From assembly GCF_000219875.1 (NCBI RefSeq), contig NC_017167.1, positions 310,001 through 374,000 on the forward strand: a stretch of 64,000 nucleotides of DNA, in the 5' to 3' direction. Shown here in pieces: positions 30,155-50,404 of the stretch (its first letter is position 1; each line of letters opens with the position of its first letter). The DNA is from Alicyclobacillus acidocaldarius subsp. acidocaldarius Tc-4-1. Lineage in GTDB: Bacteria; Bacillota; Bacilli; Alicyclobacillales; Alicyclobacillaceae. The notes beneath the pieces were generated by a model. It ran no database searches and was not told the DNA's origin. It was given only the letters and a program-made list of their open reading frames with translations. Both the position numbers and the translations under genes were made by a program.

Positions 30155-30431
30155 TGAGGCTACTGTGTTACGATACATAACTTGATAGAGTGGCCTGCAT
30201 TGCCGAGAACAGCCCTCGTGGTGTCGAATCCTGGCAGCAAAGGCCAGGAGGGGGATGGGTACAGGTAGCCACTGAAGGGAGGGATGTCTTCCTGCGGTTC
30301 GGAGAGGGCAAGACACTCGACGACCAAGCTTCGAACACGCGGGGGCAGTGACGAACGGCCAATACGGGTGACCTTCGTCACCGAACTTCGGTCTCGCTAC
30401 ACTCATGTTGCCGTAAGGAGGAGAAGGGGAC
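30155..30431 (+). promoter_or_regulatory. Long structured 5' leader of surface-protein gene
   Basis: About 280 bases lie between the promoter and the TTG start. Several local stems are visible, such as CCTGGC..GCAAAGGCCAGG around 30230 and GGTGACCTTCGTCACC near 30368. No known riboswitch class could be assigned. Long stable leaders are common on S-layer mRNAs. Only this copy of the gene has the leader. Confidence 0.5.
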
Positions 30432-33400
30432 TTGAAACGCACACTGAGTGGCATTGCTTCAGCTGCGATTGTCCTGGGTGCGATTAGCCCGATGGCGTTT
30501 GGGGCCACGTCCACGAGCGGTCTCACGCCAGCTGGCCAGCTGCCGATTGTGGTCAACGGCCAGGTGCTGTCGAATCCCTACGAGATGGTGGGGATCGACT
30601 CGGGCAACAAGACGGGATTCTTCCCGATCTACTATTTCAGCCAGGCACTCGCTAAGATTGGTATCCAGGCGACTTGGAACGGTGTGACCCACACTTGGGC
30701 GCTCACGGATTCTAACGTGAATGCTGCCAACGTCCAGGTTGCGGGTGGCATCGGGACGGGCAATACGACCGTCACCGTGAACGGCACCGTCGTGAAGAAG
30801 TTTAATACCCAAGTCGCTCGCGACCCGGCGGCCGGGCCGAAGGGGCCGATTACAACCTATCTGCCGATTTACTACATCAACAACATCCTGAAGGCGCTCA
30901 ACATCAATGGCTCCTTCAGCGGTCAGGCGGGGCTCAACATCCAGACCCAAACGGCCGTGAACACCTCCACGGAGGCGCTCTCGCCGATCCAGGTCTCCGG
31001 GCAGACGGTCGGCACGGGTGCGGATAACGCGCCGGCTGTGGCTGCTGTGGGCAATGCCATTACGTTCTCGACCACGGTGACCGATGCGAACGGGAATCCG
31101 GTGCCGAATCAGGTCGTCCAGTTCTTGGTCTCGACTACGGACAACCTGACGGTGACCGATGCGAGCGGGAACACGCTGAACTACGCGAAGCTGTCTGCGC
31201 CGATCGTGATCGGCAATAAGACCTACGATGATTACTATCAGGTGACGACCAACAGCCAGGGTGTCGCCACCATGAAAGTGACGTCGAGCGCAAGCACGAC
31301 GACGGAGCCGCTGTACGTGATTGCGCAGCTTCCGATTCAGTCGAACGGCCAGTACATCCGTTCGTCGGCGGTCACGGCGCAGTGGGGCCTGCCCGGCACG
31401 TTGGTTCTGGCGCCGCTCTGGGGCAACCAGACGAATCCGGATAATCTGACGTTCTCATCGTCGCAAGATCCGACCAAAGGTCTCATTGCGATGGTTGCCA
31501 CCATGCTGCCTGGGAATGGTCAGAACGCTTCCTCGGTGGCGGGTCAGGCTGTGAAATTCTATGTCTCCGCTGCGAACGTTGCGGGAATCGGGGCTCCAAC
31601 GGTCAACATCACGGATTCGCAGGGCAACGTGCTGAGCGGTGGCGTGGTCCAAGTGGGTGCGAATGGCCAGTTTGGTCCGCAGACCATCTACACGACCACC
31701 ACGAACAGCCAGGGTCAGGCAATCATGTACCTGAATGCGAACGTCCCGACCCAGAATGGCACGCCGCTCACGGGCGCTGTGGCAATGGCGCAGGTCAGCG
31801 CGCAGCTGGTCAATGGTGGTTCCAGCCAGGGCAACAGCTACCTGCAGTGGTCGTTCCAGGATCAGCCTGCCAAGATTGCGAATGTCTCGCCTGCGAATGT
31901 GCTGAACTCGCCCTCGTTGACCGACCAAAACCGCGAGAATCCGACGTCGGGCTCCAACCTCACCATTACAGGTACGGCGGAGGATGCCGCGGGGCAACCC
32001 GGTGCCGAACGCGCAGTTGGTCATTGTGGACGCGCCGATTGGCAGCGGACAAATTGGCGCCGACGGTACGGACAGCTATGTGGTGAACGGGCAGAAGTAC
32101 AAGTTCAGCGGCTCGTCGTTTGACCTTGTGACGACGGATGCAAACGGAAACTTCTCGTTCACGGTGTCCGATACGGTCAATGCGCAGGAGCAGCAGCAGG
32201 TGGACGACTACTTACGTCTACTATGCCGCCGCCGACCTCGGGTGTGGTGGAAGGTCAGCAGTTGCCTTCTGACTTGACGCTCCTGCCGGTGCTGGGTAGC
32301 TCGAATGGCGCGATGCAGGTCTCTTGGGAGCCTGGGCAGAGTGTCGGTGCGCTCGGATTGTCGAATCATGCCTTGCAGGCGAGCTACGCCGATGTCTCGC
32401 AGATTCCGAACAATCCTCAGGGTCTCGAGGAGACTGCAAGCTCGTCCGAAACGATGTACTTCGGTGCGTACACGGAGAGCGGCCAGGAGATTCTGCCTGC
32501 GCAGTTCCCGGATGATCAGCTGAGCTTCAATCTGAACGTACCGCAGGGCTTCACGATGAATTCGGCGTTCGGGTTCCAACTGGATCCGGCAGGTAGCGGT
32601 GATTCAACGGTTTATAACGCGATTGTGAAGCAGCTGCAAAGCAATTACGGCTACAAGACTGACGGTACCCAGACGTTTGACATCACGAACCTGTCCGTGT
32701 ACGTCGACTACAAGACGAATCAGATTTACGTCGATAGCGTGCAGGGGTACCTGTACTCGAATTTGCAGTCTGCGACGGGAACGCCGTTCACCATCACGTT
32801 TGGTCAGGGTGAAAACACCAGCGTGACGGCGAAGCTGAACACCAACTACACGGTGGCTGTCAACTCGTCGAACGACCCGAATTCGAGCATCAATATCAAC
32901 GGCGGCACCGCAACGTTGAATATCAATGTTCAGGTGAACAATCCGGACGCCAATCCGGTGGGTCAAGGCGGTGCGTCGGCTTCGGCGAACATCCAGTTCC
33001 AGCCGGGTAGCGGCGTGAGCGCGCTGGGTGAGGCGACGACCATTGAAGGCATTGAAAACTATGGTCCGTTGATCAACACCAACAGCGGGACGCCGAACAC
33101 GATCTCGTTGCAGGGCATTCCGTGGGGGAACAACCAGAGCCAGTACTTCCTGCAACCGTCGGGTGAGGTCACGTGGCTCGTGGCTCCGTTCAACAACTAC
33201 GTCAACCTGGCGAGTATCCCGAACGGTGGCCTGAACTACACGATCGCGTCCGATGGAAAGAACCAGGACTCGATCAATTTCATCGATGGTCACGAGATCA
33301 GCAATTCGAAGTACAACTACTCGGCTCAGGTGGTCATTTCGAAGAGCGGTAAAACCACTGTCAATGGCCAGGTGATCTTTGACCCGTCGGCGTACGGCCT

Positions 33401-34328
33401 GCAGACGGTCGTGGCGTACACGCCGGATGGCAACTACATCTTGGGTCAAGATTCAAGCGGCAACTACGTGCTGTACGATACCCAGACGGGCAAGCAAGTG
33501 GCGGACTTTGGTCAAGTGCCGATGCCGGCAGACGCGCAAGGCGACCCGATGATCGTGGGTGGTCAGGTATCGACGACGAGCGGCGGTTCGGGGACATTGA
33601 CACTCACGTGGATTTCGGGCAACGGTCAGTCGAAGGCTACTGGAACGGCTACCAATGCGACCGAGACCGTGAGCGACGAGTTGATCCCGATCCAAATCGT
33701 CGAGGTGGGAGCGTACGGCCGCTTCACAGGTACGTACACGTACACGGCAACAGAAAATGGCCAGACCGCAACGGCGCAGGTGACTTACACCAGCGCAAGC
33801 ACGGGTTCGGTGCAGGCGGTGTACGCAACGCCACAAAACATTACAGGCTCGGCCGACCAGACGAATACTGTGACCTTAGAGGCGCAGGATGCGTTTGGAA
33901 ACCCGGTGCCGAATGCGACGATTACAATCACGCCGCAGAATCTGCCGGGCGTGTGGATCACGGCGGTCAACGGCGTGGCATTGCAGCAGTCCGTGCCGCA
34001 AGGCAACACGTCGCAGACGGAGCCTACGCCGGTGCCGTTGTTCAATCCAGCCGACATCCTGCCGAGCGGTTGGCAGCTTGACTACAACTCGATCTCGGTG
34101 CCGGGTGCGTTGGCGGCGACGAACATTGGCAGCGGCCAGGTGCCGACGATTACGCTCACCACGAACAACAATGGCGAAGTGCAGCTGACGCTCGAGGATG
34201 GCGCGGTGACGTATGCGGCGGTGAACACCACGAAAGGTACGGGTCAAAAATGCGACGTACCAACTGATTACCGCACCGTCAGTCCAGGTGTCGGGTGGTG
34301 AGCTGAACGCGTACTCGGCTGGCGGCAC
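30424..34328 (+). repeat. Long direct repeat, copy 1
   Basis: A 3905-bp block repeated at 46114-50013 (3900 bp). Apart from seven single-base indels the two blocks look identical where I compared them, and these indels exactly account for the 5-bp length difference. The repeat starts at the AAGGGGACTTG just before the start codon and ends inside the coding sequence at GGCTGGCGGCAC. Confidence 0.95.
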
Positions 34329-34710
34329 GACGGCCATTGGTGCGGTTCCGATTAACTGGCAGGGTACCGAGACCTTGCAGGGGTCAAACGGCAACAGCAA
34401 TAGCAATGGCAACAGCAACAACGGCGGGTCGAACAACCAGCAGTCTACGCTCATCTCGAATGCTTCGGCGAGCTATGCGTTGGGATTGACCAACGTGAAA
34501 GCGACCGTTGCGTCGGGTGTGACGAGCGTCCAGATTATTGATGTGACGCAAAACAACAATTCCCTGCAAACGGCGCAGGTCAGCAACGGCCAGGTGGACA
34601 CCTACGTGGTGGGTGCGAACGCGGGTGACACGTTGGAACTTGTGCCCTATGAAGGCAACACAGCAGAGAGCAATGCTGCGGTGACGGTGACCGTCCAGCA
34701 AGCTGAATGA
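30432..34710 (+). CDS. Giant S-layer-like surface protein 1 (frame-disrupted as read)
   Basis: TTG start behind AAGGAGG (30415-30421). The protein has a signal peptide (KRTLSGIASAAIVLGAISPM, cleavage after AFG-A), then an amine-oxidase-N-like cell-surface domain (residues about 35-175: VVNGQVLSNPYEMVG, FFPIYYFSQAL, YLPIYYINNILKAL), then many Ig-like repeats (for example TTVTDANGNPVPNQVVQFLV). There are no SLH motifs. The C-terminus (after 34328) is unique to this copy, with an Asn/Ser/Gly-rich linker near 34385-34440. As read, four one-base insertions break the frame: G at 31991-31994, T near 32212, C near 32225, A at 34246-34250. Removing them gives one frame of 1424 codons, so they are likely assembly errors. 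Confidence 0.88.
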
Positions 34711-34729
34711 GATTTGGGTGGTTGGATGT

Positions 34730-34755
34730 GGAGAGAGTGCCTGATCACTCTCTCC
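34730..34755 (+). terminator. Terminator after surface protein 1
   Basis: GGAGAGAGTG (34730-34739) pairs with CACTCTCTCC (34746-34755), followed by a pyrimidine-rich tail. Confidence 0.75.
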
Positions 34756-34936
34756 ATCCTTCCATCGATGGGATAGGTACAGGGCACAGCCTTGGGTCAA
34801 ATGGGCGATCGTCTCGGACAAGGGGTGACATACATAGGGTGGGCACCTGAGAGAATAAGTATCTTCTCCAGAAGACGTCCCTGGGTCCGAATCCGAATCC
34901 TCAAGTGACCACGTATGTGATCAAGGAGGATGCCGA

Positions 34937-37900
34937 ATGGCAAAACGGAACAAATCGATGCGGAAGATGAACCTAGCCACGGCTGCCGCTGTCGCGTCGA
35001 TGTTGTCCGCCATGACGGGTGGAACGGCATATGCGGCGACAGTCAATTCACAGGCACAGAGCACAGGCTACTATATTAATGGAGATTTCTTCAATGCAAG
35101 CGACGTGTTGAGCAATCCTTCTGAGCTTGCTGAACTCAATAACCTGTTGGCTCAGAACCCAACTGGGCTATACTTGGATTTGAATGGCCAAATTGCGAAC
35201 TATGCTGGTTTTATCCAATATGTCCAGCAGAACCATCTTTCGGCGTCGAATTCGGTGTTTGACGCTTATGCGCAGGCAAATCCGTTTACTATTCCGAGCA
35301 CGGCCACACTGGTAACGCCGTCAGGGAATGCACCGTATTACGAGCAGACGATTAGTGCTGTAAATTCCAGTGTGGGTGTCTTCCCGTCTTCCATCACTGA
35401 TGGTCAGGCGTTTACGATGACGGTAACCGTCAATGATGCAAATGGCGATCCGGTCTCTGGATTGTCAGCGTCCAGTTTTGTGCTCAACGTGAATGGTAAG
35501 TTTGTGACAGCGTCAGCGGCAGTGTATCAAGGAAATGGGACCTATGTCCTAACCTTCTTGCCCACGACGTTGACCCCGGGTCCGGATGAATCAGAGGCGC
35601 TTGTCGTCGACGGTACCACTGTGGCGACGAGTGTCGGCGTGGATGTTTCGGCGGGCAGCGTTTCGACGAGTGGCTCAACGGCTGTCTTCCCGTCGAATAG
35701 CGTGTTAGATGCTAGCGGTACGTATACTGTTACTGTGAACTTGGAGGATGCGATCGGAAACCCGATTAGCGGTGCAACCGGAACTCCGACGGTGTCGTTG
35801 GGCACGGGTGCGAATGCGATTCCGTTGACCGCTACGGCATTGAAGGCTGTGACAAGCACGCCGGGTGAATATACATTCACCTTCACCGCACCGACTGTAT
35901 CAGTGTCGACCGCTTTGCCGCTTGTGGTGAATGTCGATGGCGTCACACTGACTTCGACGCAGACCTATACGGTGACGTCCGACACGCCGACTGCGTTGGC
36001 GCTTGAATCGAGCTTGCCTGCGACACTTGAAGATGGTGCGACTTACACCGTGACGGTAGGTGCAGTGGACGCGAACGGTGAACTTGTGCCGACGACTTCG
36101 CTTGCTACAACAACAACAAGCTGGACCGTCGAGTTTGCTGGGAATTCAGCTACGATCAAAAGTGTAACCACGGCAAGCACACCGGGCGAATATGAAGTGA
36201 CGTTCCAGATGCCAAGCGTCACCGCTGGTTATGTGAGCAAGCTGACAATTAGCGATACAACAAATAACTTGTCTTTAACGACCAGCAACTCGTACACGGC
36301 TGGTGCTGGGATCTCTAGTGCCGCGTCGAGCGTGACATGGCCGTCTACCACAACGTTGGTGGAGGGCCAGAGCTATACGGTGACAGTGGATGTCGTCGAT
36401 ACGTCTTCAAATCCCGTCACGGGGTTGACCACGAGCGACTTCTCGATTACGGGACCATCTACTACGATTGAATCGGTGACGCCAGGGTCCACGTCGGGCT
36501 CGTATGTGGTGACGTTCGAATTGACGACGACAACTCCTGGGACGCTTGATGTTGTGGTAGATGGCACAACGATTACGTCGTCCCCGCTCACTGTCACATC
36601 CGTCGAATCTACCTCCGTCAGTGCAGTGACCTTGTCGACGTTGGACGGGGCTACGGCTTCCTCTGTTTCCGCGCCGGTGTTATTGCCAGGTTCGTCGAAT
36701 ACGGTGACCTTGGATGCGGGTGCAGTGAACCTGACGTCGTCTGATTTCTCTGTGGAGCTTGGCAACACGCCGCTTTCGGTGACGAGTGTTGAACCAGCGA
36801 CAACAGCAGGTTATTACACCCTGACCTTCACGGCGCCGAATACGACGGTGTCGACACCTGAAACATTGACGTTCACCGTCGGAACGGCAACGACGTCCAT
36901 CAACGATGTCACGGTCGAGAACAACATCAGCGCTACAGCTTCAACTGTTGTGTCTGGTGGTCCATCGACAACTACTTGGACGGAAGGTTCAACGGCGACC
37001 TTTACTGTGAATGTGGAAAATGCAAGTGGCGACCCAGTACTTGGTTTGCCGACCTCTACGTTTGACATCACCCTTGGAAACAGCTCGAATCTGGTCACGA
37101 GTGTGACGGAGGATGGCGGCTCGTATACCGTGACGGTTCAAGCGCCGAATACGGTGGTGACGAGCGCAACGTTTTCGGTTTCGGTGGATGGTGTCACCAT
37201 CACCAATGGAGTTCCGACCAGCTCGTACAATGTCGTCGCGAGCGAACCCGCAACGTTCAACTCGAGTGTGACCTTCCCGAGCGGGAATGCGTTGCATGAG
37301 TTAATTGCCGGCCAGACCTACACGATTACGGCAACTCTTGACAATGCGCAAGGGAATCCGGTGTTGGGGCTTACTACGAGTGACTTCGCGCTAGGATATA
37401 CTACTTCTTCTGTTACAACGACCAATGGGGCGGATACTCTCCCTGAGCTTCCAACTTCGTCGTTTGCGGTAACGGGTAATAGTAACGGTACGTACACGAT
37501 TACCTTTGTGCCGACGTCTGCTTCTTCGTCTGCTGAATACCTTGCACTCTTGGTGGATTCACAGGGCGTTACGACAAAGGGATCATCCGTGTCGACATCT
37601 ACCAGTGGAGCTGTGTTTGGCGATTCCACATCGTTGTCGGTGTTGCCGGGCGCGCCTGAGCAGCTTGCTGTGACTGCGGCGACGGCTACTGTGTCAAGTA
37701 CAAATAGCCCGGACGCAGTGACCGTGACTTTGGAGGATGCTTATGGCAATCCAATTACTTCTGACAGCAGCGATGTTGTAACCTTTAGCTTAGCGACCGG
37801 ATCCGCCACGGGAGCAACATTGAGCGCAACGACCGCGACGCTTTCTTCAGGTACGGCTTCGGTGACGGTCACAACGCCGGCATCGTCTAGCGATTGGGGG

Positions 37901-37981
37901 ACGGGAAGCTCAATCACTGTGGATGCGTCTGTGACAGTGAATGGCCATACGTATACGGGAAGCGTCACTATCGATGAGTAA
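34937..37981 (+). CDS. Secreted Ig-repeat surface protein
   Basis: A 1014-residue secreted protein with a typical signal peptide ending GGTAYA-AT. After an N-terminal region of about 110 residues, it consists of about eight Ser/Thr/Val-rich Ig-like (invasin/BIG-type) repeats. Each has a V-T-V-x-DANG/NAxGxPV-GL-S core and a GxYTVTF strand, for example DANGDPVSGLSASSF, DAIGNPISGATG and NASGDPVLGLPTSTF. There is no LPXTG, SLH or transmembrane anchor. Base composition is more AT-rich and less codon-biased than the flanking surface genes. Strong AAGGAGGA before the ATG. A second S-layer component or adhesin is likely; its neighbour may glycosylate its many Ser/Thr residues. Confidence 0.82.
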   Translation: MAKRNKSMRKMNLATAAAVASMLSAMTGGTAYAATVNSQAQSTGYYINGDFFNASDVLSNPSELAELNNLLAQNPTGLYLDLNGQIANYAGFIQYVQQNHLSASNSVFDAYAQANPFTIPSTATLVTPSGNAPYYEQTISAVNSSVGVFPSSITDGQAFTMTVTVNDANGDPVSGLSASSFVLNVNGKFVTASAAVYQGNGTYVLTFLPTTLTPGPDESEALVVDGTTVATSVGVDVSAGSVSTSGSTAVFPSNSVLDASGTYTVTVNLEDAIGNPISGATGTPTVSLGTGANAIPLTATALKAVTSTPGEYTFTFTAPTVSVSTALPLVVNVDGVTLTSTQTYTVTSDTPTALALESSLPATLEDGATYTVTVGAVDANGELVPTTSLATTTTSWTVEFAGNSATIKSVTTASTPGEYEVTFQMPSVTAGYVSKLTISDTTNNLSLTTSNSYTAGAGISSAASSVTWPSTTTLVEGQSYTVTVDVVDTSSNPVTGLTTSDFSITGPSTTIESVTPGSTSGSYVVTFELTTTTPGTLDVVVDGTTITSSPLTVTSVESTSVSAVTLSTLDGATASSVSAPVLLPGSSNTVTLDAGAVNLTSSDFSVELGNTPLSVTSVEPATTAGYYTLTFTAPNTTVSTPETLTFTVGTATTSINDVTVENNISATASTVVSGGPSTTTWTEGSTATFTVNVENASGDPVLGLPTSTFDITLGNSSNLVTSVTEDGGSYTVTVQAPNTVVTSATFSVSVDGVTITNGVPTSSYNVVASEPATFNSSVTFPSGNALHELIAGQTYTITATLDNAQGNPVLGLTTSDFALGYTTSSVTTTNGADTLPELPTSSFAVTGNSNGTYTITFVPTSASSSAEYLALLVDSQGVTTKGSSVSTSTSGAVFGDSTSLSVLPGAPEQLAVTAATATVSSTNSPDAVTVTLEDAYGNPITSDSSDVVTFSLATGSATGATLSATTATLSSGTASVTVTTPASSSDWGTGSSITVDASVTVNGHTYTGSVTIDE

Positions 37982-38020
37982 GAGTTTGCTTTCGTTGCTC
38001 TGCGCACACTGACGGATGGA

Positions 38021-38048
38021 GAGCCGGGTGGAGACCCGGCTCTTTCTG
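38021..38048 (+). terminator. Terminator after Ig-repeat protein
   Basis: GAGCCGGGT (38021-38029), loop GGAG, ACCCGGCTC (38034-38042), then TTTCTG. It lies inside a longer possible reading of the next gene, which argues that the gene starts downstream. Confidence 0.85.
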
Positions 38049-38066
38049 TGGGAGGAGGCGCATCGA

Positions 38067-39527
38067 TTGGTTTCAGATGAAGTGATTCGTCAAAAATTGT
38101 TGGATGGGGCGTTTGATGAAGCCAGAAAGCTTGCACTTGAACAGATTAAAGGGGTCTCTTGGCGGGCGCAAAGTTGGGTATTTTTAGGAGAAGCGTGTTT
38201 ACGCCTTGGGAATGGAAAAATCGCAAGACGGTGTTTTGAGCGAGCGTGGTTGTTGGATCCTATGGCTCCCTGGGTGAATGCTGTGATGAAAGCATGCGAC
38301 GAGGTGTCTGCAGGGAAGCGGGATCGAGAAGTCGAAAGTGCGCTCAGGGTACCCAAGACCACCGTGTCGGCACTTGTATTGTTTCGAGATGATGCAAGGA
38401 CCATCAAGCGGTGTATCGAGGCGTTGCGTCCTGCGGTGGATGAAATCATCGCCGTGGATACGGGGTCTACGGATGGTTCAGACGTGATTGCCTCCGCTTT
38501 CGGAGCACAGGTCTATCGATTCGAATGGACGGGAGATTTTGCGGCTGCAAGAAACTTTGGGCTGTCGAAGGTAACAAGTCAGTGGGTCATTGCCATTGAT
38601 TCGGATGAGATCTTGTATGCGGAAGATGTCGATGCGATTCGCACCATTGCAGGTGTGTTTGAATCGGTCCGAAAAGAATCGCCCGTGATTCTTCGGATTG
38701 TACAGATGAACCTTACGGGCGAGACGGTCACGCCTGCGACCTCCCAGTCGCGTATGTTCCCGACGGGAGAGGACATCGAATGGCGGGGATTGATTCATGA
38801 GACGCCGACGCTGACCAAGGAAACTGCGCGTCCCGCGGTACGGGCCCTTGTGCGAATTCGCGTCTACCATGATGGGTATGATCCCAAACACGTGGATTTG
38901 GAGAAGAAATTTCGGCGGAATCTCGAACTTCTCACGGAAGCCCTCGAACGCGAACCGAACAATCCGGTCTATGAGTTTTACATAGGGCGAGAAAGTCTAT
39001 TCCTGAAAGATTATACAAAGTCCATCGAGTATCTCGAGCGAGCAGAGCAGCACGCGAAAGAGATCGCGGGCTTTTCGCTGCTTCCAGATATTCGACGCCG
39101 ACTTGCTCAAGCGTACATGCTAGCTGGCAAAAACGAGCATATGGCGAACAAACTTGAAGATATGGTGAAAGAGCATCCTGAGTATCCGGATGGATGGTTT
39201 CTACGTGGAGAAAAGAAGCTTCGGGAAGCTGGTGTTCTTCTCCAAGAAGCCGCTCAGGATTTTGCAAAGGCACAAGAAGCCGCGCAAAAATATCGGGGAA
39301 TCACGGAATATGACACAGCGATTGGGCTCTGGAAGGCACCTGCGCAACTTGGAGAAATCGCGCGGATGCGTGGCAATCTTGTGGAAGCCCGACGCTGGTA
39401 CCAGCGCGTGCTTAAGCAAGAACCGAACCTGAAGACGATCCGAGAACGTCTGGAAAAGTTGGAACAGGAAGCTTGCGCGATTGCGCAAGATGTGCAGGAA
39501 GCCACGAAAAACACAAAAGATGAGTAG
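38067..39527 (+). CDS. Family 2 glycosyltransferase with TPR repeats
   Basis: A protein of about 486 residues: an N-terminal TPR-like segment (about residues 10-75, AFDEARKLALEQIKGV), a GT-A glycosyltransferase family 2 domain (ALVLFRDDARTIKRCIEAL, VDTGSTDGS, FAAARNFGLSKV, the metal motif DSDE, HETPTL), then C-terminal TPRs (SIEYLERAEQHAK, EARRWYQRVLKQEPN). TTG at 38067 is preferred: GGAGGAGG at 38051-38058 is eight bases upstream, whereas ATG 38016 would put a terminator hairpin inside the gene. The architecture is shared with SunS-like and peptide/protein O- or S-glycosyltransferases. Next to two Ser/Thr-rich surface proteins, a role in surface-protein glycosylation is inferred. Confidence 0.85.
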   Translation: MVSDEVIRQKLLDGAFDEARKLALEQIKGVSWRAQSWVFLGEACLRLGNGKIARRCFERAWLLDPMAPWVNAVMKACDEVSAGKRDREVESALRVPKTTVSALVLFRDDARTIKRCIEALRPAVDEIIAVDTGSTDGSDVIASAFGAQVYRFEWTGDFAAARNFGLSKVTSQWVIAIDSDEILYAEDVDAIRTIAGVFESVRKESPVILRIVQMNLTGETVTPATSQSRMFPTGEDIEWRGLIHETPTLTKETARPAVRALVRIRVYHDGYDPKHVDLEKKFRRNLELLTEALEREPNNPVYEFYIGRESLFLKDYTKSIEYLERAEQHAKEIAGFSLLPDIRRRLAQAYMLAGKNEHMANKLEDMVKEHPEYPDGWFLRGEKKLREAGVLLQEAAQDFAKAQEAAQKYRGITEYDTAIGLWKAPAQLGEIARMRGNLVEARRWYQRVLKQEPNLKTIRERLEKLEQEACAIAQDVQEATKNTKDE

Positions 39528-40976: not shown

Positions 40977-41068
40977 GGAACTCATCCCTTTCTCTAGGTG
41001 TGTCTCATCCGTAGGGGGAATGCAGGACAATTCCTCCATCTTTTGCTTATGGGCGAGATGCCTCAAGG

Positions 41069-42313
41069 TCACTGCACCACTTTCGCCCATACTTTGTTAT
41101 CTTGCAGGGTGGGCAGACGCGCACCGTGACGTCCCGCGAGTAGATGCATCTCTTTCTCCGTCGATAGGAGAAATTGCATCGGCGATAGGTGCAAGGCCTC
41201 CGCGAGTTGTCCAAGATACGCGTCGGTTACACATGCTTCCGGTGGCAGTCCACGGACCAGCGCCCATTTGGCGAGCAAGGTGCGTTGCTGGCGCGCCAAG
41301 CTTTGGACATCAAACGCCGGACCAGGCAGAACGCGCTCAAACAGGTCTGGATCTTCGCTCACCGCCTCAATCACACGCTGCCACTTCGCATCCAGAGGCC
41401 ATCTTGAGCGGTTCGGATCCTCCGTGGGTTGACGAAGTGACATCCACTGGAAAAACCAATACTGGATCGTAACTGGAAAATGCGCCACCACTTCGTCCGC
41501 TTCCATGTCCGCGAATGTCCGTGCACCGTAGCGCATTTGGTGGAGAACCTCACGACGAAGCTCAATCTCCACGCGCCATACGGGTACACCGGTCCAGCCG
41601 TTTTGCTCCCACAGGCGCAAGAAGAATTTCGCTTTGGCCGGCTTTCGACTCGCGAACAGTTCATAATGTTTATCGTAAATTCGCACGTGGACGGGTGATT
41701 TCCCAAACGAGAACCCCGTAAATTGCCGATTCACGGCATGCGAGACTTCCGGCGTCTCCTGCACGTATTCAAGCCACTCGACTTCGCATTCGTGTTGATC
41801 CGTCATCCGCGATCGCGTCACAAAGCGCGGCAAGTCTTCAGGGACAAACGCCCACTCGTCGCTATCGATCGCCCAGTCGAGTCGGCTCACACGCGAACCG
41901 ACGCACCATTCGCCATCAAATGTGTAAAGCTTGTGCGGCGCGTCCGCGATCCATCGCAAGGTTTGCTTGACGTCCTGCCACCAGTCGCGAAACGGCTTGG
42001 CCCAAAGCTCCATGCTCCCGAAGATCACTTCAATTGGCCACAGATTCGACTTGCGCGGCGGCTCCGTTTCGTACACCCGCCAACGGATACGCATTCCCTC
42101 CGCTTCCTTGGCCCAACTGCGAAAGGCGAGCCAACGCCCTACGGTAGACGCGGCGTCGTACACGAGATGCGGCCCATAGAAGGGAAGGGCTTGGCCATCG
42201 GGCGCTTGTTCGTCCCGAAACCTCCGAAGGGTCTGAATGAACTCGCGAAAGACCGTCGTATGGTCCTCGACCCACAAATGTGTTACGATCGTGTCAGGGT
42301 TGGATAGGATCAA
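41069..42313 (-). CDS. Replication initiation protein (Rep_trans-like)
   Basis: A 414-residue protein resembling Rep_trans/NicK-type relaxase-initiators of rolling-circle plasmids and ICEs. Segments typical of the group are SRLDWAIDSDEW, GFSFGKSPVHVRIYDKHYEL and VWRVEIELRREVLH, where acidic/metal residues and a nicking Tyr (YDKHYEL) would lie. The TTG start at 42313 follows GAGGGGGG. Order on the minus strand is small protein, rep, FtsK, matching an ICE replication-transfer operon. Which tyrosine nicks DNA is not certain. Confidence 0.75.
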   Translation of the reverse strand: MILSNPDTIVTHLWVEDHTTVFREFIQTLRRFRDEQAPDGQALPFYGPHLVYDAASTVGRWLAFRSWAKEAEGMRIRWRVYETEPPRKSNLWPIEVIFGSMELWAKPFRDWWQDVKQTLRWIADAPHKLYTFDGEWCVGSRVSRLDWAIDSDEWAFVPEDLPRFVTRSRMTDQHECEVEWLEYVQETPEVSHAVNRQFTGFSFGKSPVHVRIYDKHYELFASRKPAKAKFFLRLWEQNGWTGVPVWRVEIELRREVLHQMRYGARTFADMEADEVVAHFPVTIQYWFFQWMSLRQPTEDPNRSRWPLDAKWQRVIEAVSEDPDLFERVLPGPAFDVQSLARQQRTLLAKWALVRGLPPEACVTDAYLGQLAEALHLSPMQFLLSTEKEMHLLAGRHGARLPTLQDNKVWAKVVQ

Positions 42314-42727: not shown

Positions 42728-43229
42728 CACCTTTCTTTCATGATGTGTGAGGCTCCTGTCCTGGAGGACGAGGAGAACAGAACGATACGCATCCTCATGA
42801 GACGATACGAATGGGTTTAACCCCTATTGGCATCACCTCGCATATTGCTAAAGCTCGAAAAGCGCGCCCCGACTAGGTTCGTAGGCATTGATTAAAGTTT
42901 GGGCGATCACCTTTCGGCTATGAGGATAGATCGAAGAATGGCGAATATCAATACCTTTCACCAAGTTTTTTATTAAAAACTTTTCGGTTAAGGTTGCCCT
43001 GGCGTAGAGGCCGTGAGAGACGGGAATTTACCACGAGCTAAGTCTGTAGTATAGTTTGGGATGAAATTCGGAAAGGATGTTCGATAGAACCTATGGAATG
43101 GGTTAAGACGTCTCCTGAGGGGAGCGTCGGCCCGTCCATCCCACATGACACTTAGCCATCCGGCTTGGAGATAGCTTGGGATTCCTTCTGTGATGAGGCT
43201 TTTCACATGCATGTCTGGAGGTGAACCGT
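42728..43229. promoter_or_regulatory. Divergent control region of the element
   Basis: About 500 bp with locally AT-rich sequence (TTTTTTATTAAAAACTTTT near 42965). A rightward promoter candidate for the XRE gene reads TTACCA (43028-43033), 16-base spacer, TATAGT (43050-43055). A leftward promoter must also lie here but is not clear. No gene is seen in it. Confidence 0.55.
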
Positions 43230-44081
43230 ATGGCTCGCGTCCCCAAACAAGAACGTGTCAGTGATGAACAGAAAAAGATGTTCGCACAATGGCTTCGACA
43301 GTTCCGCGAAGCTCGAGGATGGTCCCAAACAGAGCTCGCCCGGCACTTGGGCGTGTCCTTGGCGTATTACAACTCGTTGGAAAACGCGAATAAAACCGCG
43401 ACCCGACGCAAGCTGTATGACATTGCGCAGAAACTCGGGGATGTGCGGATCATTGCCCAGCTTTTCGGCAAAGACGTCTTGGAGCGATTCCAGCGCGAAC
43501 ACGAGGCGCGGATGGTTCTCGCCACGTCCCATCCGGATTCCCCCTATGAAGAAGTGCCCATTGACCCGTTGCTCATGTGGTGGGGGTTTTCCCCGCGCGC
43601 CCGTGTTCGACTCATGCGCTACAGCGAGTGGAAGCGAGAACCGTTCCACGGCCAGCTCTTCTACGTCACCGAAGGACCGCTGGAAGAGGGGAGTTTCTAC
43701 TTTGCGAATCTCCAGGAGCGGACGCCCCAACTTGAATCGGTGGCGTCCGTTCTCATCCGCTACTTTGATTTGGCGTGTGATCGGGAAATGCAACTCCTGG
43801 ACCTCGATCTCTCGCAGATGAAGAAGATCCCGCTCTATGAGGGGGTCCGTCGCTTGTATGTCGCCATTCAGGTGTACGAGAGCTTGGATGACGCGGAAGA
43901 GGTCCATCGCCGCTTCACGCCGCTCATGACCCCGCGCATCCGCAACCTGGATGTCCACGCCAAGCGCCAAGTCAACCTGTTGGCGGGCTACCTGTCCGCG
44001 GTGCAAGCTGCCAGCCCGCCTCCCCATGCCGCCACCGGGGAGACCTCCGAGACCCTGGAGCCCTTCGTGGCGACTCCCTGA
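43230..44081 (+). CDS. XRE-family transcriptional regulator
   Basis: A 283-residue protein with an N-terminal helix-turn-helix (residues about 18-70: RQFREARGWSQTELARHLGVS, recognition helix LAYYNSLENANK) and a long C-terminal region without recognised domain. ATG at 43230 lies eight bases after GGAGG (43217-43221). Placed divergently from the rep operon and before the recombinase, it fits the immunity/master repressor position of ICEs and prophages (compare ImmR in ICEBs1). The large C-terminal part could sense a signal or carry a partner-binding function. Confidence 0.85.
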   Translation: MARVPKQERVSDEQKKMFAQWLRQFREARGWSQTELARHLGVSLAYYNSLENANKTATRRKLYDIAQKLGDVRIIAQLFGKDVLERFQREHEARMVLATSHPDSPYEEVPIDPLLMWWGFSPRARVRLMRYSEWKREPFHGQLFYVTEGPLEEGSFYFANLQERTPQLESVASVLIRYFDLACDREMQLLDLDLSQMKKIPLYEGVRRLYVAIQVYESLDDAEEVHRRFTPLMTPRIRNLDVHAKRQVNLLAGYLSAVQAASPPPHAATGETSETLEPFVATP

Positions 44082-44110: not shown

Positions 44111-44194
44111 AGGCCATGCGCCTCATCGCCGGTCAAGGCCAAGCCGCTTACGCGGTGCTTCGCAGCCTTGACCGGCTCGGCGCATGGCCTTTTT
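44111..44194 (+). terminator. Large hairpin terminator between XRE and recombinase genes
   Basis: AGGCCATGCGCC (44111-44122) pairs with GGCGCATGGCCT (44179-44190), and GCCGGTCAAGG (44128-44138) with CCTTGACCGGC (44166-44176), followed by TTTTT. The stem is over 20 bp, unusually long for a terminator. Confidence 0.8.
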
Positions 44195-44312
44195 GCGCAG
44201 TAGGCCGAATGCCCCCTTGTGCGCGAGGTCTGCGCGCAAGGCGGAGAAATTCGCGCCGAACCGCGACCTGGGTGCCAGTTCTCAGGCCGGGCGGCCTGTG
44301 GAGGCGAGTCGC

Positions 44313-45188
44313 ATGTTGGGAGAGGAAGCCATCACGGAGTTCGGGGCGCACCTTTTGCGCCAGGGCCGGAGTCGGAAGACGGTCATCGGGTACCAGAGCG
44401 ACTTGAGAGGATTCGCGGCCTTCTACGCCAAACGCCACAACCTGCCTTGGGTGGTGGAAGAGACAACGGTCGAGGACTTGCGGGCATACCTCGACGCGCA
44501 GCCCGCGCAAGCGCCGACTCTCAACCGGCGGTTGTACACGTTCCGCTCCTTCTTCAAGTACCTCGTGCGCCAAGGCGTCTTGACCTCGAACCCGGCGGAA
44601 ATGCTCGAGGCCAAGCGCGTCGTGCAGAAGGAGCGGTACGCGCTCCCGGCGGACGAGCTTGCGCGGTTCATCCATCACATTCCGCATCCGCACGTCCAAG
44701 CGGCGGCCTGGACCATGGCGTACACCGGACTTCGCATGGCGGAAATCATCTTCCTTCGCATGATGGACGTCGACTTCGAGGAAGGCGTCGTCCGCGTGGA
44801 ACACGGCAAAGGCGACAAACCGCGTGAAGTGCCGATTTCCGACGCGCTTCGACCCATCTTGTCGCAGTATGTCGAGCAATATCGAAAGGGCGCGAAACCC
44901 CACGAACGATTCTTCGCGACACCCTCGACGGGCGGTTTATCGCCGACACACATCAACCGGGTGCTCAAGCAGACAAGCCAAGCGCTTGGGTATCGCCGGT
45001 ATGTCACTGCCCACACCTTCCGACACAGCTTTGCCTCGAACCTGATTCGCCAAGGCGTGCACATCACCTTGGTTCAGAAGCTCTTGGGCCACAGCTCCCC
45101 GACCGTCACGTCGGTCTACACCCATGCTACACGAGACGACCTGTACCGCGCCGTGCAGACGCTCTCGTTTGAGGAGGGACAAGCATGA
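44313..45188 (+). CDS. Tyrosine recombinase (XerC/D-like integrase)
   Basis: A 291-residue tyrosine recombinase with SAM-like N-terminal DNA-binding domain (RSRKTVIGYQSDLRGFAAFY) and the catalytic set Arg (MAYTGLRMAE), Lys (HGKGDKPREV), His-x-x-Arg (AHTFRHSFA), His (LLGHSSPTVT) and Tyr nucleophile (VYTHATRDD). Short length resembles XerC/D and phage/plasmid Xer-like enzymes rather than large ICE integrases. ATG 44313 follows GTGGAGG. The stop overlaps the next gene's ATG (ATGA), so the two are coupled. It is the likely enzyme for excision/integration of this element or resolution of its multimers. Confidence 0.92.
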   Translation: MLGEEAITEFGAHLLRQGRSRKTVIGYQSDLRGFAAFYAKRHNLPWVVEETTVEDLRAYLDAQPAQAPTLNRRLYTFRSFFKYLVRQGVLTSNPAEMLEAKRVVQKERYALPADELARFIHHIPHPHVQAAAWTMAYTGLRMAEIIFLRMMDVDFEEGVVRVEHGKGDKPREVPISDALRPILSQYVEQYRKGAKPHERFFATPSTGGLSPTHINRVLKQTSQALGYRRYVTAHTFRHSFASNLIRQGVHITLVQKLLGHSSPTVTSVYTHATRDDLYRAVQTLSFEEGQA

Positions 45189-45931
45189 CGCTTCGACCGG
45201 AAGACGTGTTCCAACACCTTGCGGATGGGAAGACGCGAGACGAGATCGCGCAGATGTACGGGTACAAGGCGCGTCGGTACCTCGACCAATTCATGATGCG
45301 CCGCGGGTACCAATGGAGCGTGGAGCGCGAGACGTATGTCGAGCGGGTCACACCGAAGAAGAAGCGGCGCGGACAGAAGGTGGCGCGGGTCATTGAGGCG
45401 TTCCAAGCGGAGCCCTACGGCGATCCCAAGCGGATCGCCGAGGCGCTTGGGTTTGCGAGTGCGTTCGAGATGGCGCAGTACATGCAGGCGCACGGATACC
45501 TGTGGTCCAACACGGCGCGCAATTACGTCGCACAAGACCGCACACAAGACGAAGTCAGTCCATCGACGGAAGCTGACAGCCCTCGACAAGCGGTGTCGAA
45601 CGAGGGCGAATCCGCTTCTCTGCCGCTTGGGGACGCGCTCGAGATTCTGGGGATGCTGGTGAAGCATCGTGCGAAACTGGAGCGGTTGCTCTTGCATACG
45701 GAGCAGGGCGCGACGGACGTGCCGCGCTACACCATCCCAGGGCTTTCGGTGGTGAAGAGCCTCCACATCTCGGTGGAGCTTGACCGACTGCTCCGGTCTG
45801 CGAGTCAGGCGTGGCGGATGTCCCAGCGCGAGATCCTGGAGGCGGCGGTCATCGAGTTTCTGCGCAAGCACGGTTACGACGAGGTTCTTCATCGCTTGCT
45901 CACCGGTCGCAAACAGGAACGAACTTCCTGA
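45185..45931 (+). CDS. DNA-binding-like protein with C-terminal ribbon-helix-helix
   Basis: A 248-residue basic protein. The N-terminal half has two helical repeats with sequence like DEIAQMYGYKARRYLDQFMMRRGYQW and KRIAEALGFASAFEMAQYMQAHGYLW, reminiscent of duplicated helix-turn-helix units. A disordered acidic linker follows. The C-terminus KSLHISVELDRLLRSASQAW to ILEAAVIEFLRKHGY fits a ribbon-helix-helix DNA-binding domain. Translationally coupled to the recombinase. It could be an excision factor, a partition-type protein or a repressor. The two identical palindromes 41 bases after its stop are candidate binding sites. No named family recognised. Confidence 0.7.
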   Translation: MTLRPEDVFQHLADGKTRDEIAQMYGYKARRYLDQFMMRRGYQWSVERETYVERVTPKKKRRGQKVARVIEAFQAEPYGDPKRIAEALGFASAFEMAQYMQAHGYLWSNTARNYVAQDRTQDEVSPSTEADSPRQAVSNEGESASLPLGDALEILGMLVKHRAKLERLLLHTEQGATDVPRYTIPGLSVVKSLHISVELDRLLRSASQAWRMSQREILEAAVIEFLRKHGYDEVLHRLLTGRKQERTS

Positions 45932-45960
45932 CGTTTTGGGACTTGAAAAGGATGACGTAA

Positions 45961-46026
45961 GAAAGCTTTCAGCAAGCTTGCGCGTCACAAGCAAGGGCGT
46001 TGCAAGCTTGCTGCTTGCAAGCATGC
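45961..46026. promoter_or_regulatory. Palindrome cluster upstream of surface protein 2
   Basis: Contains the palindromes GAAAGCTTTC (45961-45970), GCAAGCTTGC twice (45972-45981 and 46002-46011, exactly 30 bases apart) and GCATGC (46021-46026). The second also forms a stem-loop TTGCAAGC-TTGCT-GCTTGCAA (46000-46020). Operator pair or recombination core are the main options. Confidence 0.6.
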
Positions 46027-46100
46027 GTCAAGATCAGGATTTGGGAGGGCCTGAGAAAGCGCATGGGATCCGGCATGTCCAACGTAAGGAAAGGAAGCGA

Positions 46101-49100
46101 ATGGGTGATCATCAAGGGGACTTGAAACGCACACTGAGTGGCATTGCTTCAGCTGCGATTGTCCTGGGTGCGATTAGCCCGATGGCGTTTGGGGCCACGT
46201 CCACGAGCGGTCTCACGCCAGCTGGCCAGCTGCCGATTGTGGTCAACGGCCAGGTGCTGTCGAATCCCTACGAGATGGTGGGGATCGACTCGGGCAACAA
46301 GACGGGATTCTTCCCGATCTACTATTTCAGCCAGGCACTCGCTAAGATTGGTATCCAGGCGACTTGGAACGGTGTGACCCACACTTGGGCGCTCACGGAT
46401 TCTAACGTGAATGCTGCCAACGTCCAGGTTGCGGGTGGCATCGGGACGGGCAATACGACCGTCACCGTGAACGGCACCGTCGTGAAGAAGTTTAATACCC
46501 AAGTCGCTCGCGACCCGGCGGCCGGGCCGAAGGGGCCGATTACAACCTATCTGCCGATTTACTACATCAACAACATCCTGAAGGCGCTCAACATCAATGG
46601 CTCCTTCAGCGGTCAGGCGGGGGCTCAACATCCAGACCCAAACGGCCGTGAACACCTCCACGGAGGCGCTCTCGCCGATCCAGGTCTCCGGGCAGACGGT
46701 CGGCACGGGTGCGGATAACGCGCCGGCTGTGGCTGCTGTGGGCAATGCCATTACGTTCTCGACCACGGTGACCGATGCGAACGGGAATCCGGTGCCGAAT
46801 CAGGTCGTCCAGTTCTTGGTCTCGACTACGGACAACCTGACGGTGACCGATGCGAGCGGGAACACGCTGAACTACGCGAAGCTGTCTGCGCCGATCGTGA
46901 TCGGCAATAAGACCTACGATGATTACTATCAGGTGACGACCAACAGCCAGGGTGTCGCCACCATGAAAGTGACGTCGAGCGCAAGCACGACGACGGAGCC
47001 GCTGTACGTGATTGCGCAGCTTCCGATTCAGTCGAACGGCCAGTACATCCGTTCGTCGGCGGTCACGGCGCAGTGGGGCCTGCCCGGCACGTTGGTTCTG
47101 GCGCCGCTCTGGGGCAACCAGACGAATCCGGATAATCTGACGTTCTCATCGTCGCAAGATCCGACCAAAGGTCTCATTGCGATGGTTGCCACCATGCTGC
47201 CTGGGAATGGTCAGAACGCTTCCTCGGTGGCGGGTCAGGCTGTGAAATTCTATGTCTCCGCTGCGAACGTTGCGGGAATCGGGGCTCCAACGGTCAACAT
47301 CACGGATTCGCAGGGCAACGTGCTGAGCGGTGGCGTGGTCCAAGTGGGTGCGAATGGCCAGTTTGGTCCGCAGACCATCTACACGACCACCACGAACAGC
47401 CAGGGTCAGGCAATCATGTACCTGAATGCGAACGTCCCGACCCAGAATGGCACGCCGCTCACGGGCGCTGTGGCAATGGCGCAGGTCAGCGCGCAGCTGG
47501 TCAATGGTGGTTCCAGCCAGGGCAACAGCTACCTGCAGTGGTCGTTCCAGGATCAGCCTGCCAAGATTGCGAATGTCTCGCCTGCGAATGTGCTGAACTC
47601 GCCCTCGTTGACCGACCAAAACCGCGAGAATCCGACGTCGGGCTCCAACCTCACCATTACAGGTACGGCGGAGGATGCCGCGGGCAACCCGGTGCCGAAC
47701 GCGCAGTTGGTCATTGTGGACGCGCCGATTGGCAGCGGACAAATTGGCGCCGACGGTACGGACAGCTATGTGGTGAACGGGCAGAAGTACAAGTTCAGCG
47801 GCTCGTCGTTTGACCTTGTGACGACGGATGCAAACGGAAACTTCTCGTTCACGGTGTCCGATACGGTCAATGCGCAGGAGCAGCAGCAGGTGGACGACTA
47901 CTACGTCTACTATGCGCCGCCGACCTCGGGTGTGGTGGAAGGTCAGCAGTTGCCTTCTGACTTGACGCTCCTGCCGGTGCTGGGTAGCTCGAATGGCGCG
48001 ATGCAGGTCTCTTGGGAGCCTGGGCAGAGTGTCGGTGCGCTCGGATTGTCGAATCATGCCTTGCAGGCGAGCTACGCCGATGTCTCGCAGATTCCGAACA
48101 ATCCTCAGGGTCTCGAGGAGACTGCAAGCTCGTCCGAAACGATGTACTTCGGTGCGTACACGGAGAGCGGCCAGGAGATTCTGCCTGCGCAGTTCCCGGA
48201 TGATCAGCTGAGCTTCAATCTGAACGTACCGCAGGGCTTCACGATGAATTCGGCGTTCGGGTTCCAACTGGATCCGGCAGGTAGCGGTGATTCAACGGTT
48301 TATAACGCGATTGTGAAGCAGCTGCAAAGCAATTACGGCTACAAGACTGACGGTACCCAGACGTTTGACATCACGAACCTGTCCGTGTACGTCGACTACA
48401 AGACGAATCAGATTACGTCGATAGCGTGCAGGGGTACCTGTACTCGAATTTGCAGTCTGCGACGGGAACGCCGTTCACCATCACGTTTGGTCAGGGTGAA
48501 AACACCAGCGTGACGGCGAAGCTGAACACCAACTACACGGTGGCTGTCAACTCGTCGAACGACCCGAATTCGAGCATCAATATCAACGGCGGCACCGCAA
48601 CGTTGAATATCAATGTTCAGGTGAACAATCCGGACGCCAATCCGGTGGGTCAAGGCGGTGCGTCGGCTTCGGCGAACATCCAGTTCCAGCCGGGTAGCGG
48701 CGTGAGCGCGCTGGGTGAGGCGACGACCATTGAAGGCATTGAAAACTATGGTCCGTTGATCAACACCAACAGCGGGACGCCGAACACGATCTCGTTGCAG
48801 GGCATTCCGTGGGGGAACAACCAGAGCCAGTACTTCCTGCAACCGTCGGGTGAGGTCACGTGGCTCGTGGCTCCGTTCAACAACTACGTCAACCTGGCGA
48901 GTATCCCGAACGGTGGCCTGAACTACACGATCGCGTCCGATGGAAAGAACCAGGACTCGATCAATTTCATCGATGGTCACGAGATCAGCAATTCGAAGTA
49001 CAACTACTCGGCTCAGGTGGTCATTTCGAAGAGCGGTAAAACCACTGTCAATGGCCAGGTGATCTTTGACCCGTCGGCGTACGGCCTGCAGACGGTCGTG

Positions 49101-50404
49101 GCGTACACGCCGGATGGCAACTACATCTTGGGTCAAGATTCAAGCGGCAACTACGTGCTGTACGATACCCAGACGGGCAAGCAAGTGGCGGACTTTGGTC
49201 AAGTGCCGATGCCGGCAGACGCGCAAGGCGACCCGATGATCGTGGGTGGTCAGGTATCGACGACGAGCGGCGGTTCGGGGACATTGACACTCACGTGGAT
49301 TTCGGGCAACGGTCAGTCGAAGGCTACTGGAACGGCTACCAATGCGACCGAGACCGTGAGCGACGAGTTGATCCCGATCCAAATCGTCGAGGTGGGAGCG
49401 TACGGCCGCTTCACAGGTACGTACACGTACACGGCAACAGAAAATGGCCAGACCGCAACGGCGCAGGTGACTTACACCAGCGCAAGCACGGGTTCGGTGC
49501 AGGCGGTGTACGCAACGCCACAAACATTACAGGCTCGGCCGACCAGACGAATACTGTGACCTTAGAGGCGCAGGATGCGTTTGGAAACCCGGTGCCGAAT
49601 GCGACGATTACAATCACGCCGCAGAATCTGCCGGGCGTGTGGATCACGGCGGTCAACGGCGTGGCATTGCAGCAGTCCGTGCCGCAAGGCAACACGTCGC
49701 AGACGGAGCCTACGCCGGTGCCGTTGTTCAATCCAGCCGACATCCTGCCGAGCGGTTGGCAGCTTGACTACAACTCGATCTCGGTGCCGGGTGCGTTGGC
49801 GGCGACGAACATTGGCAGCGGCCAGGTGCCGACGATTACGCTCACCACGAACAACAATGGCGAAGTGCAGCTGACGCTCGAGGATGGCGCGGTGACGTAT
49901 GCGGCGGTGAACACCACGAAAGGTACGGGTCAAAATGCGACGTACCAACTGATTACCGCACCGTCAGTCCAGGTGTCGGGTGGTGAGCTGAACGCGTACT
50001 CGGCTGGCGGCACCACGGCGATCGGCGAAGTGCCGATTACCTGGCAGGGTGGAGCTGGCAATGTGGCGACGGTGACGTTAGGGACCTTCTCAACGTCTAG
50101 CTCAACTTCGCCCTATGACTACTCGGGTACCGTGACGGTGACGTATCCTGACGGAAACCCGGTTACCGGGCTCACGTATTCCAACTTCGCTGTCTCGGAT
50201 AACAGCGGGGCAAGCGGTGTAAATTACACCGGCGTGGCGAGCAATAGCACTCCAAGCGCAGGAGACTTCACCGTGTCTGGTGGTACAAATGGGGTGTACA
50301 CGTTGAATGTGTATACGTCGTCGGATGTGAAAGGTGACACGCTTACGGTGAAGGTTACTGCAAATGGTGTGTCGCAGACGGCAACCGCGACGTACTCGAA
50401 CTGA
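46101..50404 (+). CDS. Giant S-layer-like surface protein 2 (frame-disrupted as read)
   Basis: Same protein as surface protein 1 through about codon 1300, but with a different C-terminal end of about 125 residues containing an Ig-like unit (VTVTYPDGNPVTGLTYSNFAVS). Translation can begin at ATG 46101 (after AAGGAAAGGAAG), adding seven residues MGDHQGD before the TTG used by copy 1 (46122 here). As read, three indels break the frame: extra G in GGGGG (46619-46623), missing T at 48412-48413, missing A at 49522-49524. Correcting them against copy 1 gives 1427 codons from TTG. It lacks the promoter and leader of copy 1, and downstream is a strong terminator. Confidence 0.87.
46114..50013 (+). repeat. 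Long direct repeat, copy 2
   Basis: A 3900-bp partner of the block at 30424-34328, same orientation, offset 15690 bp. Homology begins at AAGGGGACTTG and ends at GGCTGGCGGCAC, after which the two C-terminal coding sequences diverge gradually (ATTGGTGCGGTTCCG versus ATCGGCGAAGTGCCG). Confidence 0.95.

Follow-up and report, generated by a model that had tools for sequence, protein, structure and literature searches.

A putative integrative element that may exchange S-layer genes behind one chromosomal expression site in Alicyclobacillus acidocaldarius

The stretch of DNA analysed here (the window, 64,000 nucleotides) comprises bases 310001-374000 of the 3,124,048-base single-contig genome of Alicyclobacillus acidocaldarius subsp. 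acidocaldarius Tc-4-1 (NC_017167.1, labelled G000 in comparisons). A. acidocaldarius and its relatives are environmental thermoacidophiles, and the nearest named relative found for this genome is Alicyclobacillus mali. At the locus of interest an rRNA operon, a small gene and yigZ are followed by a gene for a surface-layer (S-layer)-like protein, which recurs in two direct repeats of 3.94 kb (30424-34365 and 46114-50050) that frame what appears to be an integrative element (Table 1). The repeats are 99.62% identical over 3943 aligned columns, with a spacing of 15,690 measured at their left ends. Before 34329 they differ by seven single-base insertions or deletions (indels) and no substitutions, each indel lying within a run of two to five equal bases; eight substitutions then fall within 34329-34355, and similarity is gone after 34365. 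The left edge lies exactly 8 nt 5′ of a TTG start codon. Read across the indels, ~1300 residues are common to both S-layer-like copies and the ends differ (34710 versus 50404). A first reading of the locus, made from the sequence only, had described twin 3.9-kb repeats with ~1300 shared residues and differing C-terminal ends, enclosing a surface protein, a glycosyltransferase and Rep, FtsK and recombinase genes; alignment of both copies and domain scans agree with it on each count. Both copies are frameshifted as assembled. Because the A. mali counterpart is a single intact frame of 1429 amino acids (aa), the indels may plausibly be sequencing errors. A search of the whole contig with 2,001 bases of the repeat gave exactly two matches.

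Table 1. Features of the S-layer locus and the proposed element, in window coordinates
Feature	Position	Strand	Remarks
YigZ/IMPACT-family gene	29207..29893	-	TIGR00257 E 6e-48, just under cut-off; PF01205
Promoter-like TTTACT-17-TATAAT	30119..30147	+	1 found versus 0.1 in shuffles
5′ leader of expression site	30148..30431	+	conserved blocks in 13-genome alignment
Leader block CACTGAAGGGAGGGATGTCTTCCT	30270-30293	+	24 nt
Leader hairpin GGTGACCTTCGTCACC	30367-30382	+	13-genome alignment
Shine-Dalgarno AAGGAGG	30415-30421	+	expression-site leader
Proposed attachment core, expression-site copy	30424..30452	+	-8 to +21 of start codon
S-layer-like gene copy 1, frameshifted	30432..34710	+	proposed element-borne, behind expression site
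Second surface protein	34937..37981	+	Invasin_D3, Filamin domains; element cargo
GT2 glycosyltransferase with tetratricopeptide repeats	38016..39527	+	element cargo
FtsK/SpoIIIE-like ATPase	39615..41090	-	PF01580 E 9e-13; element backbone
Rep_trans replication initiator/relaxase-like	41069..42313	-	PF02486 E 2e-5, below Pfam cut-off; element backbone
HTH_3 repressor-like protein	43221..44081	+	element backbone
XerC-like tyrosine recombinase	44184..45188	+	PF00589 E 2e-33, 117 bits, over cut-off
Recombinase-adjacent protein IAP	45185..45931	+	conserved recombinase partner; predicted DNA-binding
Gap before second core	45932..46113	+	between IAP gene and element-side core
Proposed attachment core, element-side copy	46114..46142	+	identical to 30424..30452
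S-layer-like gene copy 2, frameshifted	46122..50404	+	proposed displaced resident, leaderless, predicted silent
Second FtsK-like gene	50464..51741	-	83% DNA identity to element FtsK; follows copy 2

The tyrosine recombinase frame is intact, without stops, and has all of the R, K, HxxR, H and Y positions that make up the catalytic motif expected of such enzymes. The gap that separates the neighbouring IAP gene from the second core contains six GCAAGC/GCTTGC hexamers, against 0.22 expected from their density in the window, and these are possible candidates for recombinase arm sites. Type IV secretion genes were not found among the element genes scanned, where the FtsK-like protein alone gave coupling-ATPase matches, all below cut-off. 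A relative of the second surface protein comes after the S-layer gene in G015, one of the genomes compared, and glycosyltransferase relatives are present in the elements of G021 and G015. The S-layer-like protein itself has a signal-peptide-like start, Ig-like domains and a conserved leader; no SLH domain was matched in the pieces scanned, and SLH domains are not required of all S-layer proteins. The flanking yigZ adjoins the S-layer gene in the fetched single-copy loci and is a conserved marker of the chromosomal S-layer locus. At the other end, the second FtsK-like gene is read as a remnant of an older element and has an A. mali counterpart at the same place. A further FtsK-like fragment (L058 5263-5982, 90% protein identity to that of the element) lies ~1.3 kb past the right end of the window and suggests more element decay downstream. 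A minus-strand open reading frame at 43203-44093 was rejected, as it has no PHROG or Pfam matches and relatives keep the plus-strand repressor frame.

The two S-layer-like copies differ in what precedes them. The promoter-like pair ahead of copy 1 is conserved in A. mali, G014, G002 and G010, and no such site was found ahead of copy 2 in 45600-46140. The leader blocks span ~280 nt and are common to 13 aligned genomes, all of one genus; they include a hairpin, GGTGACC(T)TCGTCACC, and the block CACTGAAGGGAGGGATGTCTTCCT, which is nearly invariant across the 13 S-layer leaders, lies 139-162 nt 5′ of the start in the window and may be the start of a leader peptide or else a regulatory RNA. RNA folding gave z -1.7 for the leader and z -2.4 for the element gap, neither of them a decisive value. 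A GGAGG Shine-Dalgarno sequence precedes 19 of 19 yigZ-side copies versus 0 of 7 element-side copies tested, in a tally of 29 gene starts from which G021a was left out for too little upstream sequence; two further S-layer paralogues among these starts also have no GGAGG, and the yigZ locus of G016 has one as well, the G016 entry in the tally being another paralogue. Likewise, no Shine-Dalgarno sequence was found in the gap ahead of copy 2. A pattern combining Shine-Dalgarno sequence and start occurs exactly once in eight of ten genomes searched, with none for the reversed-pattern control. In G008, the interval from IAP to the leaderless gene has three overlapping versions of one terminator-like hairpin, against 0.8 expected.

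A 29-bp core is identical at both ends of the element, and in the window the identity runs on into the gene. Its left limit comes from the copies of several genomes: the within-genome match 5′ of the start codon is 8 nt in G000, G014, G008 and G020, with the G014 and G008 values covering copies 1 versus 2 and 1 versus 3. These 8 nt read AAGGGGAC in G000 and G014, AAATACTC in G008 and AAACGCAC in G020, and in G021 six nucleotides (GAAGAC), read by eye from the sequences, are shared 5′ of the start. The core thus varies among lineages yet matches within each genome. In G014, the exact match between copies 1 and 3 extends from 8 nt ahead of the start codon to 35 nt past it, with partial similarity for ~30 nt more; beyond the start region they are unrelated in ungapped DNA and share 55% protein identity. 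A core pattern written from the A. acidocaldarius and G008 cores, and not expected to fit every genome, was counted twice in G000, three times in G014, four times in G008 and once each in G002 and G010.

Comparison with relatives yielded both a single-copy state and further arrays. A. mali (L028) has one S-layer gene. Its leader corresponds to that of copy 1, and its body, its C-terminus and the FtsK-like gene behind it correspond to those of copy 2; to the right of this FtsK-like gene come a Rep-like gene and then the right flank of the window (60062 on). At the gene, this arrangement is what removal of 30424-46113 would leave. The sequence-only reading had proposed an integrated circle and had pointed to related genomes for the single-copy state: copy 1 is indeed flanked by chromosomal sequence upstream and copy 2 by chromosomal sequence downstream, and the two flanks meet around one gene in A. 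mali. Unoccupied sites in relatives are represented by this A. mali gene, with older element remnants behind it, and by the single cores of G002 and G010. From the leader to near the gene end, A. mali and copy 1 are 94.5% identical in DNA, versus 82% and 86% for the flanks; at the protein level, S-layer residues 29-330 are 97% identical between the two genomes and YigZ 83%. Because gene and flank identities differ in this pair, the S-layer gene has apparently moved on its own, apart from its flanks. Between G000 and G002 the S-layer gene is 57% identical and its neighbour 89%.

The association of surface genes with a Rep/FtsK/recombinase element, also claimed from the sequence, recurs beyond this genome. 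Among 61 genomes searched, our own included, Rep relatives were found in seven and IAP relatives in eight. G014 and G008 have the same gene order, FtsK(-), Rep(-), repressor(+), recombinase(+), IAP(+), S-layer(+); short contigs of G021, G009 and G015 carry it too, either complete as far as IAP or broken into pieces. G014 and G008 each have an array of three S-layer genes, with two 9.1-kb units (84.6%) in G014 and two 9.49-kb units (99.4%) in G008, and in both the upstream end of the repeated unit is the start codon minus 8. The displaced genes are open, at 799 and 1130 aa in G014 and 987 and 839 aa in G008. In G021, a contig ending in an S-layer start behind IAP overlaps another that begins at an S-layer gene. 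Over 59 genomes of the order there are 13 recombinase-IAP loci, two of the 14 IAP matches being fragments of a single gene. An S-layer or Ig-like surface gene comes after eight of these loci, in G000, G014 (two), G008 (two), G020, G021, counted though its contig stops 18 nt into the gene, and G039, counted for an Ig-like frame of 1337 aa that lacks a signal peptide and lies 1.1 kb on. Another three are cut off by the end of their contig, in G009 (exactly at the junction), G015 and a second G021 locus. Over residues 29-330, G014 copy 3 shares 77% and 63% identity with the single genes of G010 and G002, respectively, against only 54% and 52% for copy 1; full-length values are 51% and 46% versus 40% and 44%. 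Since copy 3 is closer to these single genes, the G014 array appears to end with the former resident and to begin with a later arrival.

G020, assembled as one contig, separates the leader from the coat genes. The 29-bp sequence AAACGCACTTGAAACGTACGCTTACAGGC occurs there three times, matching at 29/29 positions, in the 55 kb examined (G020:C1:1136778, 1170195 and 1178763; L060, L157). The expression-site core adjoins yigZ, and the DNA that follows ends the frame after 19 codons, with no S-layer gene. The other two cores, on the opposite strand and 8.6 and 42 kb off, belong to leaderless S-layer genes of 1000 and 998 aa, the distal of which comes after an IAP. As assembled, neither of these S-layer genes is connected to the leader; an inversion between cores would connect one of them.

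Gene order, junction position, the single leader, the multiple cores and the single-copy relative are plain features of these sequences. We read the region, with a probability of roughly three in four, as an S-layer expression site holding an integrative element of ~15.7 kb, whose recombinase, presumably active, would target the gene start and so swap the whole gene behind one promoter. The chromosome would supply one promoter, a long leader and a Shine-Dalgarno sequence beside yigZ. The ~29-bp core, reaching from between the Shine-Dalgarno sequence and the start codon to codon 7, would be the attachment site of the tyrosine recombinase, which IAP probably assists. The element would carry this core together with its own leaderless gene of predicted S-layer function, and here also the second surface protein and the glycosyltransferase. 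On integration, the S-layer gene of the element would come to lie behind the resident leader, and the resident gene, now leaderless and presumably silent, would end up beyond the opposite end of the element; excision would reinstate the resident gene and release ~15.69 kb. Apparent silencing of the old coat gene could let the cell change its outer coat by recombination. The 3.9-kb identity would additionally need homologous recombination, gene conversion or a very recent common origin. The sequence-only reading had expected excision of a circle with a swap of C-terminal ends. A ~15.69-kb circle does fit the spacing, whereas the exchanged unit is now read as the whole gene; on this reading, the C-terminal swap in the window would be what remains after the copies became identical over 3.9 kb.

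Three other explanations deserve comparison with this one. It is unlikely that the copies are static paralogues, that is, old tandem duplications around a dead element, with no present switching and with identity maintained by gene conversion. Element decay is indeed suggested by FtsK-like genes or gene fragments found after copy 2, in A. mali and in G014, and the frameshifts of both window copies as assembled would suit such a history. Nevertheless, the recombinase retains its frame and catalytic positions, the displaced genes of G014 and G008 are open frames, and both the single-copy relatives and the discordant gene similarity argue against it. Quite unlikely, too, is Campbell-type integration as the sequence-only reading had it, by a RecA crossover between a circular element and the resident gene with the recombinase incidental. 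The 3.9 kb of identity between the window copies would serve RecA, and the flank arrangement expected is the one seen with A. mali; within the window itself, homologous recombination between the copies could have operated. As a general mechanism it fares poorly: exact identity amounts to just 43 nt between G014 copies 1 and 3 and 29 nt in G020, yet the junction is unchanged. Tracts of 29-43 nt are generally too short for efficient RecA recombination, and homologous recombination is not expected to stop at minus 8 repeatedly in lineages with different cores. That one surface gene was assembled twice is scarcely credible and was rejected, for although the copies differ by homopolymer indels alone up to 34329, each has its own upstream and downstream sequence, the same architecture is found in G014, G008 and, by contig overlap, G021, and A. 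mali gives a separate single-copy junction.

Several observations weigh against the proposal of a recombinase-driven element at an S-layer expression site. At the locus, site-specific recombination by itself leaves the 3.9-kb identity of copies 1 and 2 unexplained, and the protein is assigned to the S-layer from Ig-like domains, with no SLH match. A. mali is not a clean empty site, given the Rep-like gene behind its FtsK-like gene, and at 52-60 kb, where A. mali differs, the window instead holds a transposase and other genes. The right limit of the core comes from one genome, G020. The core pattern has no match in G009, G015, G020 or G039, and one G021 match lies in another gene; the fourth G008 core belongs to a separate gene outside the array, with GGAG upstream but without the conserved leader. 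The expression-site pattern has no match in G009 and G039, the remaining two of the ten genomes searched. In G008, full-length comparison is mixed, copy 3 being nearer to G012 and G010 and copy 1 nearer to G001, G003 and G002, and gives no clear sign that copy 3 is the former resident. Two of the 13 recombinase-IAP loci, the third G021 locus and a degraded G020 locus, have no surface gene after them.

Also on this side of the balance, the recombinase-IAP pair occurs away from S-layer genes. An alignment search found IAP in a viral contig, where no S-layer gene is annotated or recognised in 10.7 kb; a single-sequence IAP query gave no match in viral contigs. IAP was found in no phages and, among plasmids, only in that of Haliovirga abyssi (pHIC; L136, Fusobacteriota), as a tandem array of three IAP-recombinase-Rep units of which one is split by an IS3 gene; these adjoin RHS-repeat genes, and no S-layer gene is annotated or recognised in 45 kb. 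Neither of these two matches is this element, and searches with IAP found no free circular relative. A tblastn search for a free circular Rep relative gave no matches in 72,556 plasmid records, and in 50,697 phage records one weak match, to a Thermus phage (30% over 42%). Viral contigs yielded no confirmed Rep relative in a search that reached close relatives only.

The partner protein offered a route to more distant loci. A structure model of IAP (mean predicted local distance difference test score 66.6, two sequences) has two helix-helix-helix-strand-strand units and a strand-helix-helix end, a fold that suggests winged-helix and ribbon-helix-helix DNA binding. Foldseek with this model gave 79 matches at E ≤ 10 and none at E ≤ 0.001. 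We infer from the model that IAP may be an excisionase or an architectural protein. An IAP profile matched 33 of 398 Bacilli genomes, 22 of them in family f23, and 19 stretches were fetched, 17 from f23. The S-layer pair of this family, which we take to resemble Brevibacillus OWP and MWP, has SLH domains in its second protein. In four loci (L124, L127, L128 and L129), a cassette without an N-terminus lies on one side of recombinase-IAP and an oppositely oriented S-layer gene on the other, and the cassettes are homologous to S-layer genes of the same set.

Long-match inverted repeats are mostly absent from the fetched f23 loci; a short core, AGTGCTATTAA, emerged after protein alignment. With at most one mismatch it occurs once on each side, in opposite orientation, in these four loci and in L125, whose left-hand frame has no cassette-type homology match and qualifies by the core only. 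In the cassette it stands at the start, and in the S-layer gene near codon 139. In L120 and L122 the gene side alone has it, with the gene side of L120 in the other orientation relative to the recombinase; in L130 it is confined to the cassette side, where the stretch stops before the gene. Over eight loci there are 10 exact occurrences versus 0.2 in shuffles, and 13 versus 4.0 at up to one mismatch, although the motif was derived from these same loci and the count is not independent. Six genes gave 15 pairwise comparisons, and in 14 of them identity drops at this point, sharply in some pairs (75% to 32%) and slightly in others; between L127 and L129 it rises instead. The f23 ends thus look exchanged at the core, probably by an invertible S-layer C-terminal switch, and by analogy this pattern supports our reading of the window without proving it. 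More broadly, it is an evenly balanced proposition that recombinase-IAP is a recombination module repeatedly turned on the coat genes of Bacilli. In Alicyclobacillaceae it would drive self-mobile replacement elements that hijack one expression site and leave displaced genes as a silent archive, and in the Brevibacillus-like f23 it would invert C-termini via AGTGCTATTAA.

Elsewhere in the window, a 380-bp direct repeat (99% identical) lies at 7517-7896 and 56074-56451, with a third, partial copy (84%) at 16783-16895, and a T-box leader at 18460-18716 precedes a 2-isopropylmalate synthase-like gene (18752-20476).

S-layers are exposed to phages and to the environment, and the rapid diversification of their genes is poorly understood. 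If our reading of the window is true, a mobile element lands on the start of a coat gene and brings a replacement allele, sometimes with a glycosyltransferase, and coat identity travels between cells as a unit while the promoter stays. This predicts one expression site per genome, several silent genes and the 29-bp sequence. In Geobacillus stearothermophilus PV72 (Scholz and colleagues, 2001), sbsB reportedly lies on a megaplasmid, without its promoter. We know of no dedicated recombinase or attachment core for the sbsA/sbsB switch. The window gene, in contrast, would ride an integrative element with its own recombinase, use the gene start as its site and form tandem arrays. Inversion-type surface switches include sap of Campylobacter fetus, slpA/slpB of Lactobacillus acidophilus and CwpV of Clostridioides difficile. 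These have one active promoter or expression site, silent copies or states and recombinase-driven change, features that the window locus would share on our interpretation; unlike them, it would work by insertion and excision of a gene-bearing mobile element, and inversion geometry resembling theirs is found only in G020 and, with a different core, in family f23. The nearest known case is the G. stearothermophilus S-layer switch by chromosome-plasmid rearrangement, described in a source that also names inversions in Campylobacter and C. difficile (PMC3919590). The literature searched on S-layer recombination, S-layer inversion in Brevibacillus and Alicyclobacillus S-layers, which left most subscription papers uncovered, describes no such system.

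Two further classes of element share parts of this logic. Integrons have a fixed promoter and an attachment site beside which promoterless genes are inserted, the first being expressed most. The window likewise appears to combine a fixed promoter, an attachment site and promoterless genes set in beside it, but here each unit has its own recombinase, replication and FtsK-like genes, and the target is one host gene. Elements of the Tn916/ICEBs1 type have a Rep_trans relaxase and an FtsK-like coupling protein. The window element resembles them in its Rep_trans, FtsK-like, repressor and tyrosine recombinase genes. It differs in that no type IV secretion genes are recognised in its 15.7 kb, its proposed target is the start of an S-layer gene, and its cargo would be an allele of that very target.

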